Shown: one piece after another, positions 61,560 through 64,000 of the stretch
How the letters are laid out: each line of letters starts with the position of its first letter
How positions within the stretch are numbered: the stretch's first letter is position 1
Assembly: GCF_003063645.1 (NCBI RefSeq)
Contig: NZ_NESJ01000003.1
Coordinates: 62,001 to 126,000 of the forward strand
DNA length: 64,000 bases
Direction of reading: 5' to 3'
Origin: Limnohabitans sp. 2KL-51
GTDB taxonomy: Bacteria; Pseudomonadota; Gammaproteobacteria; Burkholderiales; Burkholderiaceae_C
Made by a program: the position numbers and the translations under genes
The notes under the pieces: model-generated
Seen by the model: the letters and a program-made list of their open reading frames with translations, nothing else
What the model was told of the DNA's origin: nothing
Databases searched by the model: none

Positions 61560-62720
61560 ATGGATTTTTCCCTTAACGACGGACAAAAAATGATGATCGA
61601 AACGGTGCGCCGCTTCATCGCCGAAGAACTTCAGCCCCTAGAAAACGAGGTCGAGGAAACAGGTTTTCTGGACAAGAGCAAAGCCCAGGCCATCCACGAC
61701 AAAGCCAAAGCACTCAGCCTTTACGGCATGAACATGCCCGCTGAGATAGGCGGTGGCGGACTGTCCAACATGGACCGTATCCTGTGCGAAGAGCAGTTCG
61801 GCCACACCACCGACATCCTGATTCGCCGCGCTTTTGGCAATGTCTACGAGCCCCTCCTGCACTGCAAGGGCGAACAAATCGAGCGCTGGCTTAAACCCGC
61901 CGTGGCCGGCAAGCGCACCTGCGCCATCACCATCACCGAATCGGGCGCAGGCTCGGACGCGGCAGGCATCAAAACCAACGCGAAGAAAAATGACAAAGGC
62001 TGGGTGCTCAACGGCACAAAGCACTTCATCAGCGATGGCGAGTGGAGCGACTTCTTTTTGGTCTCAGCCAAAACCGGTGAAAAAGAAATTTCGATGTTCA
62101 TGGTGGACAAGGGCTTGGCCGGTTTCACCTTGGGCAAAGACCAAAAGATGATGGGCCTGCGCGGCACGCCGCATCTGGAACTGTTTTTTGACAATGTGCA
62201 ACTCGAAGACGCTGCCTTGCTGGGCGAAGCGGGCCAAGGCTTCAAGCTGGCCATGGGCGCGCTCAATGTGGTGCGTCTGGCGCAAGTGGGCGCCCGCGCC
62301 GTGGGCAAGGCCACGCATGTGTGCGAGTTGATGCTGAACTGGGCAAACGAACGCAAGCAGTTCGGCAGCAAGATCGGTGATTTTCAGATGGTGCAGCAGA
62401 TGATCGCCGACAGCGTGATCGAGATCAATGCCGCCCGTTGGATGGTTTACCACGCCGCCTGGATGTTGGACCAAGGCATGGACGCACGCGAGCAAATCGC
62501 CATGGTCAAAGTGCACGCGGCTGAGACCCTGGGTCGCGTGGTGGACCGTGCGGTGCAGGTGTTTGGCGGCATGGGCTTTTGCAAGGAGCTGTCCATCGAG
62601 CGCTATTACCGCGATGCCCGTATTTACCGCATCTACGACGGCACCAGCGAGATCCATCGCGGCGTGATTGCCAAAAGTACGATGAAAAAAGGCGCCGTGC
62701 TGTTTGATGTGCACCGCTGA
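61560..62720 (+). CDS. Acyl-CoA dehydrogenase
   Basis: CAITITESGAGSDAAGIKTNAKKNDKGWVLNGTKHFIS...RAVQVFGGMGFCKELSIERYYRDARIYRIYDGTSEIHRGVIAK. Confidence 0.93.
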   Translation: MDFSLNDGQKMMIETVRRFIAEELQPLENEVEETGFLDKSKAQAIHDKAKALSLYGMNMPAEIGGGGLSNMDRILCEEQFGHTTDILIRRAFGNVYEPLLHCKGEQIERWLKPAVAGKRTCAITITESGAGSDAAGIKTNAKKNDKGWVLNGTKHFISDGEWSDFFLVSAKTGEKEISMFMVDKGLAGFTLGKDQKMMGLRGTPHLELFFDNVQLEDAALLGEAGQGFKLAMGALNVVRLAQVGARAVGKATHVCELMLNWANERKQFGSKIGDFQMVQQMIADSVIEINAARWMVYHAAWMLDQGMDAREQIAMVKVHAAETLGRVVDRAVQVFGGMGFCKELSIERYYRDARIYRIYDGTSEIHRGVIAKSTMKKGAVLFDVHR

Positions 62721-62754: not shown

Positions 62755-62830
62755 GCCGGATGAAGGGGATGGGCGGCCTCCTCATACTGGGGTACCAGAA
62801 ATCGTCGTCCGCCCATCCCCTTCATCCGGC
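62755..62830. repeat. Large hairpin element A: 22-bp perfect inverted repeat with a 32-nt loop containing the 25-nt conserved core
   Basis: GCCGGATGAAGGGGATGGGCGG (62755-62776) / CCGCCCATCCCCTTCATCCGGC (62809-62830); core CCTCATACTGGGGTACCAGAAATCG at 62780-62804. Confidence 0.95.
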
Positions 62831-62840
62831 TGTGGGTGCA

Positions 62841-62870
62841 TCCGTAGGTCGGAACTTCAGCTCCGACATG
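62841..62870. repeat. REP-like short hairpin GTAGGTCGGAACTTCAGCTCCGACATG
   Basis: GTCGGA...TCCGAC stem between the two large hairpins. Confidence 0.55.
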
Positions 62871-62957
62871 GAATATTGAACGAACCACAACTCAGCAGTT
62901 TTGCATGAACATGAGCCCTAACGCCAACGGATTTGATCTCTGTGCAAACCACCAGCC

Positions 62958-63035
62958 CATCGGGGGTGGCGTGGGGGCCGTGGCCGATTTCTGGTACCCC
63001 AGTATGAGGCCGCGGCCCCCACGCCACACCCGATG
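62958..63035. repeat. Large hairpin element B: 27-bp imperfect inverted repeat (25/27) enclosing the same 25-nt core, inverted
   Basis: CATCGGGGGTGGCGTGGGGGCCGTGGC (62958-62984) / GCCGCGGCCCCCACGCCACACCCGATG (63009-63035); core CGATTTCTGGTACCCCAGTATGAGG at 62985-63009 is the exact reverse complement of element A's core. Confidence 0.95.
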
Positions 63036-63083: not shown

Positions 63084-64000
63084 ATGCAAACCAAATTCAT
63101 GACCGCAGCACAAGCGGCACAACTCATCCAAGACGGTGACACCGTGGGCCTCATGGGCGGTGGTGGTGGCCTGATGGAAGCCACCCATTTGTTTGAAGCG
63201 GTGCAAGAGCGCTTCCTGAGAACTCAAGCTCCGAAGAACCTCACCCTCATCCACGCACTGGGTATTGGCGACAAGAAAACCAAAGGCATGAGCTGCTTCG
63301 CGCACGAAGGCCTGGTCAAGCGCGTCATCGGCGGCCACTGGGTCTGGTCACCGGCCATGCAGCAACTGGCCCTGGCCAACAAGATTGAGGCCTACATCCT
63401 GCCCGCCGGCGTCTCAAGTCAGCTCATGCGCGAAATCGGCGCAGGCCGTCCCGGCCTCATCAGCCATGTGGGGCTGGGCACGGTGTGCGACCCGCGCCAT
63501 GGTGGGGGCCGCATGAACGATGCCGCCCAAGACGACTTGGCAGAAGTCATCACCATCGATGACCACGAATACCTGCGCTACAAGCCCTTCCCCATTCATG
63601 TGGCCATCGTGCGCGCCAGCAGCGCCGACGAAGACGGCAACATCAGCTTCGAACATGAAGCGGCCAACCTGGACGCCCAATCGCTGGCCTTGGCAGCGCG
63701 CAACAGCGGCGGCAAAGTCATCGTGCAGGTCAAGGAGCGCATGCCCAAGGGCACCCTCAAAGCCCGCGAAGTGCGCATCCCCTCGGCCTGGGTGGACGCC
63801 ATCGTGGTCGATCCGCAGCAGTCCACCAGCTACGACATCCCGTTTGATCCGGCTTTCAGTGGCGAGCTGACTGGCGCCGAACGCGCGGCCAGCGAGGCGC
63901 AAGACCACGCCCGTGAAGTGGCCGCCTCTCAAGAGGCCTTCAGCGAGCGCCAGGCCGTGGCGCGCCGTGCGTACCAGGAACTCTTCAACACCGACAAAAC
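63084..64000 (+). CDS. CoA-transferase (acyl-CoA:acetate/3-ketoacid CoA-transferase-like), truncated by window end
   Basis: MQTKFMTAAQAAQLIQDGDTVGLMGGGGGLMEATHLFEAVQERFLRTQAPKNLTLIHALGIGDKKTKGMSCFAHEGLVKRVIGGHW...; open to 64000, so absent from the ORF list. Confidence 0.9.
   Translation, partial: MQTKFMTAAQAAQLIQDGDTVGLMGGGGGLMEATHLFEAVQERFLRTQAPKNLTLIHALGIGDKKTKGMSCFAHEGLVKRVIGGHWVWSPAMQQLALANKIEAYILPAGVSSQLMREIGAGRPGLISHVGLGTVCDPRHGGGRMNDAAQDDLAEVITIDDHEYLRYKPFPIHVAIVRASSADEDGNISFEHEAANLDAQSLALAARNSGGKVIVQVKERMPKGTLKAREVRIPSAWVDAIVVDPQQSTSYDIPFDPAFSGELTGAERAASEAQDHAREVAASQEAFSERQAVARRAYQELFNTDK

Follow-up and report, generated by a model that had tools for sequence, protein, structure and literature searches.

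Near the end of the 64,000-nucleotide stretch of Limnohabitans sp. 2KL-51 DNA analysed here (the window; contig NZ_NESJ01000003.1), a preliminary description had reported two long hairpins, A and B, with unrelated stems around an identical 25-nt core in opposite orientation, and we were interested in what kind of element keeps such an interior between such different arms. As set out below, the pair represents one copy of a Comamonadaceae repeat family that appears not to have been described.

The hairpin pair in the window

Hairpin A was recovered where it had been reported, with a perfect stem of 22 bp (62755-62776 paired with 62809-62830), and hairpin B likewise at 62958-63035, with a few mismatches in its stem. 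An exact search placed the 25-mer at 62780-62804 on the plus strand and at 62985-63009 on the minus strand, with no further occurrence in the window and none in 100 shuffles, in agreement with the described identity and opposite orientation. The two stems were also said to share no obvious sequence, which is true overall, except for the G/C-rich last few pairs beside the core. Folding z-scores of both hairpins ranged from -7.2 to -8.9 compared to dinucleotide shuffles, none of 200 shuffles being equally stable, and the reported lack of a T tract next to either hairpin was confirmed in the window sequence. The pair is located between an acyl-CoA dehydrogenase gene, the stop of which lies 35 bp upstream of hairpin A, and a coenzyme A transferase gene of the same direction (Table 1). 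The same locus is also occupied in G168, G052 and G246, and two Limnohabitans records have single copies there. In the spacer between the hairpins, a short REP-like palindrome, TAGGTCGG-N-CCGAC, was detected at 62845-62867 (chance expectation 0.01 per window); a palindrome resembling it adjoins a hairpin in L005, near 1573-1596.

Table 1. Features at the hairpin pair of the window. F, functional strand; R1, covariance model built from the collected core-bearing copies. The internal loop of the inner modules is invariant across the family.
Feature	Position	Strand	Description	R1 score
Acyl-CoA dehydrogenase gene, upstream neighbour	61560..62720	+	PF00441, PF02770, PF02771; context, outside the element	
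Hairpin A	62755..62830	F strand = -	22-25 bp stem around inner module	86.1 bits on -, 37.5 on +
Inner module of A on F	62782..62803	-	GATTT 62799-62803, CTGG 62795-62798, loop 62791-62794, CCAG 62787-62790, TATGA 62782-62786	
Spacer between A and B	62831..62957		127 bp	
Hairpin B	62958..63035	F strand = +	stem of about 27 bp, G.T-type mismatch on F	85.6 bits on +, 38.9 on -
Inner module of B on F	62986..63007	+	GATTT 62986-62990, CTGG 62991-62994, TACC 62995-62998, CCAG 62999-63002, TATGA 63003-63007	
Coenzyme A transferase gene, downstream neighbour	63084..63998, runs past window end	+	PF01144; context, outside the element	

A fixed internal loop in stems of free sequence

When copies were gathered by the core alone, 248 of 252 unique copies folded as a hairpin, showing that the flanks of other copies form stems as well. 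On the F strand the module reads 5'-(stem of about 26 bp, any sequence)-C-GATTT-(apical stem and loop, variable)-YATGA-G-(stem)-3', and the hairpins measure 76-86 nt with sequence-free stems, the arms being uniform in length (about 26 bp) and the pairing stopping sharply about 26-27 pairs out. The core had been suggested as the invariant that a protein recognises; it is one version of the inner module, and the real invariant is the internal loop GATTT/YATGA. Diverged copies retain C-GATTT...YATGA-G nearly without exception, while the apical stem varies with its pairing kept (CTGG/CCAG, GTGG/CCAC, GCG/CGC, CTG/CAG, GTG/CAC and others) and the apical loop ranges from 3 to over 10 nt. A copy from another Burkholderiales family (L421) has a much larger apical part, a stem of the full 27 pairs and the same internal loop. 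An independent motif scan of the collected loci led to 268 hairpins and to no match in the reversed-sequence control. The loop geometry would comprise tandem G.A pairs together with U.U, U-A and U.Y.

Compensatory change, proposed for the stems in the preliminary description, was confirmed by covariance analysis of 57 diverse copies picked among well-paired ones, a choice that inflates the paired percentage and leaves unaffected that arms differ between copies yet match. Changes on both sides were found in 29 of 31 base pairs, with 577 double-changed cells versus 146 in shuffles and a covariation score of 0.896 versus 0.13-0.16 when the partner was slid by one column; all covariation measures lay above those of 500 out of 500 shuffles. 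What selection keeps in this repeat family is structure, not sequence.

One strand carries the signal

Mismatches in the stems are strongly asymmetric. Over 248 hairpins, 358 G.T and 41 A.C mismatches were counted on F (8.7x), and among copies with a diverged core 81 and 15; with one vote per stem cluster, 37 votes were for G.T and none for A.C, with 13 ties. F is the strand opposite to the core as first written: on the strand given there, the mismatches are mainly A.C, equal to G.T (or G.U) on F. In those ADH|DUF779 hairpins for which F is antisense to the mRNA, the asymmetry persists at 16:1. Because F keeps the G.T excess also in copies where it lies antisense to the gene, a single strand, and specifically F, is what folds and is under selection. 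For the same reason a role confined to sense mRNA fails to explain hairpin A, and action in sense mRNA only was ruled out. The proposed choice between a structured RNA and a DNA element is narrowed to this extent only. G.U is preferred over A.C in RNA too, so the asymmetry is no proof of DNA. Hairpins A and B agree in their asymmetry, indicating that F is the bottom strand in A and the top strand in B, both pointing outward.

Head-to-head units

This outward arrangement is common to the family, as 71 of 77 close neighbours in the motif scan of the collected loci, and 81 of 90 by strict core, stand head-to-head with F outward, at core-to-core distances of 105-294 bp in close pairs. About a third of the copies in the loci examined (96/268) are solitary. 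Genome G065 contains about 30 units with a spacing of about 154 bp; the similarity common to all of them ends near the hairpin feet (about 242 bp), and a subset shares more flank. The spacers of these G065 units (e.g. L042, L054) form an inverted repeat of their own, GGTAGCGCGCTACC...GGTAGCGCGCTACC, which contains GTAG/CTAC and may be a further REP doublet nested within the unit.

Distribution

A search of the host genome with the 25-mer, as had been suggested, gave six strict matches, each with a different long stem and mostly in opposite-orientation pairs, so the core is not unique to this locus. Within the family, the strict core was detected in 20 of 251 genomes with 1 to 61 copies per carrier, named records including Rhodoferax, Limnohabitans, Polaromonas and other Comamonadaceae, and R1 found matches in 51 of 251 Comamonadaceae genomes. 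For Limnohabitans sp. 2KL-51 itself R1 gave 17 matches in the family search and 12 in the order-wide one, where the number of candidates scored per genome was lower. Together with this genome, G065, G081, G185, G052, G168 and G246 are carriers with high copy numbers. Among approximately 387 Burkholderiales genomes of other families, R1 matched one (L421) and the strict core none; the strict core was also absent from 81 presumed Alcaligenaceae genomes, and R1 gave no match in about 12 sampled ones. None of 2.9 million viral contigs contained the strict core, and a viral origin was therefore dismissed. A Limnohabitans-like copy in L140, a record titled Singulisphaera, lies on a MAG contig labelled Planctomycetes and is probably due to a binning error.

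Genomic sites and mobility

The element occurs after genes, between operon genes, between tandem or convergent genes and in frame within the linker of uvrA. For isolated hairpins between tandem genes, F was antisense in 31 cases versus 14 by crude gene calls. The comparison of syntenic loci that had been advised did reveal relatives without the element at ADH|DUF779, boxB|boxA and the uvrA linker, with other spacers at the first two. Among related non-carriers, about half show a hairpin and T-run terminator at this place in ADH|DUF779, against none of 12 carriers (spacers read by eye); here a terminator may have given way to the element, or the element may have inserted beside one that was lost. 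In the boxB|boxA spacer of G064 (L298), the carriers' stem CGTCAATGGCCGGGGCG / CGCCCCGGCCTTTGACG is present with a short loop and without the core, and R1 scores no match; this stem is possibly a core-less ancestor or a case of core loss.

In the UvrA interdomain linker (gene named from sequence), in-frame hairpin pairs are found in the host genome and several other genera, as in L375, L385 and L355 (G052, G246 and the host genome). The linker has 115-167 aa in genomes with a detected motif versus 40-73 aa in most element-free genomes; linkers of 90 and 100 residues in two genomes without a detected motif (L415, L412) may hold decayed copies. The L375 locus, flanked by two pairs, was considered as an autonomous element and proved to be uvrA with two in-frame insertions.

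The ADH|DUF779, box, uvrA and window loci are occupied across genera, and the element both persists vertically at some sites and spreads to others. An automatic empty-site search over the collected loci led for the most part back to the loci described here, and neither target-site duplications, clean insertion junctions nor recent identical copies were resolved. Multi-copy units and presence or absence at orthologous sites point to mobility, and the unit behaves like a mobile element with divergent arms, in partial agreement with the earlier idea of a mobile cassette. In Limnohabitans, some single copies lie within the arms, at the centre, of a larger RAYT-type REPIN palindrome with GATCAACATTAATTT ends (L074, L077, L095, L139, L159 and others), the same end type that flanks the RAYT gene of G065. 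In L113 (5519-7405), two hairpins flank an apparent two-gene restriction-modification system between two DNA topoisomerase-like genes (ORFs by eye).

Candidate partner enzymes

RAYT genes (PF01797) were equally common in carriers and non-carriers, no core-like site was detected in the RAYT loci fetched, and the ends that flank the G065 RAYT gene are GGGGTCAGATCA, not the core. RAYT/TnpA-REP was therefore discarded as cognate transposase, and with it the REP/TnpA-like link of the preliminary description. No family of transposases or nucleases is repeatedly found next to the element, and a recurrent neighbour gene as partner was rejected too, the neighbours being mixed housekeeping genes.

Possible origin and function

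The multi-copy state, the head-to-head unit and the strand-specific, covarying structure, together with the orthologous sites that are occupied or empty, including those in frame in uvrA, were established by the analysis. We find it somewhat probable that the element is a non-autonomous mobile palindrome of REPIN-like type, recognised via its internal loop as a folded single strand of DNA. The F strand of each half, as single-stranded DNA, would form a long hairpin, and a putative hairpin-recognising enzyme of the host would read the loop C-GATTT/YATGA-G at a fixed height of about 26 bp above the foot, with any inner tip allowed, and would spread the pair. As the arm sequence would be irrelevant to recognition, the arms could drift through compensatory changes, and as the halves are mirror images, the folded signal would be identical at the two outer ends and F would point outward at each, much as a small transposon has matching ends. 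What we infer here is that the folded strand is DNA and not RNA, that there is such an enzyme and that transposition takes place, and several observations weigh against this reading: the lack of a recurring transposase or nuclease family and of a resolved junction or target-site duplication, RAYT genes that neither co-occur specifically with the element nor carry it, cross-genus occupied sites that could be old function-bearing copies, the third of copies that stand alone, and the preference for G.U in RNA as well.

The main rival, which we consider rather unlikely, is a bidirectional RNA element: a transcript from either side would carry an antisense-type hairpin first and the functional F hairpin second, the F loop (tandem G.A and U.U) would be bound by a protein or processed by an RNase, and the pair would end, stabilise or insulate transcripts both ways. 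The G.U-type wobble on F, the RNA-like tandem G.A of the loop, the sites after genes and between tandem or convergent genes, and the terminators at ADH|DUF779 in non-carriers (absent from all 12 carriers) are consistent with it. However, A hairpins in operon spacers keep the F signature at 16:1 with F antisense to the mRNA, the isolated hairpins between tandem genes are biased to antisense, there is no U tract, and the presence is patchy (51/251 genomes). It is very improbable that hairpins which already existed, terminators for example, received the inner module at their tip, in which case the arms would be unrelated because they belonged to the target. The core-less stem of G064, missed by R1, would suit such a process, yet it is the one candidate empty tip and core loss explains it equally well, while the arms are sharply uniform at about 26 bp and stems are common to orthologous copies and covary. 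We would likewise give little credence to a DNA site with a host function (e.g. cruciform binding for chromosome organisation) that is vertically maintained and not a selfish repeat: the occupation of the ADH|DUF779, uvrA and window loci in several genera speaks for it, and against it stand copy numbers of 1 to 61 strict-core copies in carriers with none in most sampled relatives, the in-frame insertion within uvrA and the nesting in RAYT-type REPINs in Limnohabitans.

Whatever the mechanism, this is a repeat family kept by structure with a measurable strand-resolved signature, and the definition C-GATTT...YATGA-G in a stem of about 26 bp lets others find and test the element. Mobilisation as single-stranded DNA would point to a so far unrecognised enzyme that reads hairpins in a common family of freshwater bacteria; should the element act as RNA, it is an abundant uncharacterised motif inside operons and uvrA.

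Comparison with known elements

Rfam 15 gave no match above the gathering score, only sub-threshold, spurious miRNA-type hairpin matches, and a literature text search for the element's sequence returned no paper. With intrinsic transcription terminators the element shares a G/C-rich hairpin after genes, but it has a large conserved inner module and no T tract, the 3' flank of F being A/C-rich and T-poor family-wide, and this class was set aside. MITEs (PMC10969869) are similar as short, non-autonomous inverted units without coding capacity; the element, however, lacks fixed-sequence terminal inverted repeats, and a parental IS was not found. Rickettsia palindromic elements, as they are cited in PMC3733652, are also palindromic repeats in frame in coding genes; judged by that description, they differ in their lineage and from the element's paired hairpins, unrelated arms and fixed internal loop.

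The one published repeat that could overlap with the element is the Beta-proteobacterial repeat element (BRE), which, according to PMC3110155, is 75-91 bp long, G+C-rich and mobile-looking and occurs in Bordetella, Polaromonas, Rhodoferax and Delftia, thus resembling the element in size, composition, apparent mobility and host range. By the same account BRE is sequence-conserved and often in tandem arrays, which sets it apart by description, not by sequence; as the paper text gives no BRE sequence, only the absence of the core from presumed Alcaligenaceae argues against identity. Ten genomes in which the Bordetella BRE was looked for near lexA yielded no usable result.

Closest in organisation are REPs and REPINs (PMC3116915, PMC3733652, PMC8266576), likewise small palindromes in inverted doublets, mostly extragenic after genes and some in repair genes such as uvrA. 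The genomic context of the element agrees with that of REPs, which lie mostly after genes, between tandem or convergent genes and in repair genes, and in-frame REPs in uvrA are known from other bacteria (PMC3733652). The inverted doublet is the unit here as in REPINs, and base pairs are kept via two-sided change (29/31 pairs, reached by 0/500 shuffles). In contrast to the conserved palindrome of 20-40 bp in REPs, the element has a stem of about 26 bp with free sequence, in a hairpin of 76-86 nt, and an invariant internal loop. It has no unpaired GTAG/CGTC foot tag, as only 8 of 262 hairpins have GTAG, and 18 of 262 CGTC, within 14 nt of their 5' foot, and no dedicated RAYT gene flanks or accompanies it. 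As both the tag and the RAYT tests failed, we do not file the element as a GTAG/CGTC REP. Tentatively, it may represent an undescribed class of strand-specific hairpins arranged head-to-head, in which a fixed 5x5 loop (GATTT/YATGA) at fixed height on a sequence-free stem of about 26 bp would be the sole recognition signal for a putative non-RAYT enzyme processing DNA (or RNA). REP transposase acts on single-stranded REP and on one strand only, and the E. coli enzyme requires a conserved mismatch bulge in the stem (PMC8266576). By analogy, this logic would be the best fit for the element as well, with its fixed irregularity at a fixed height, its strand specificity, arms free to drift and doublets of opposite orientation.
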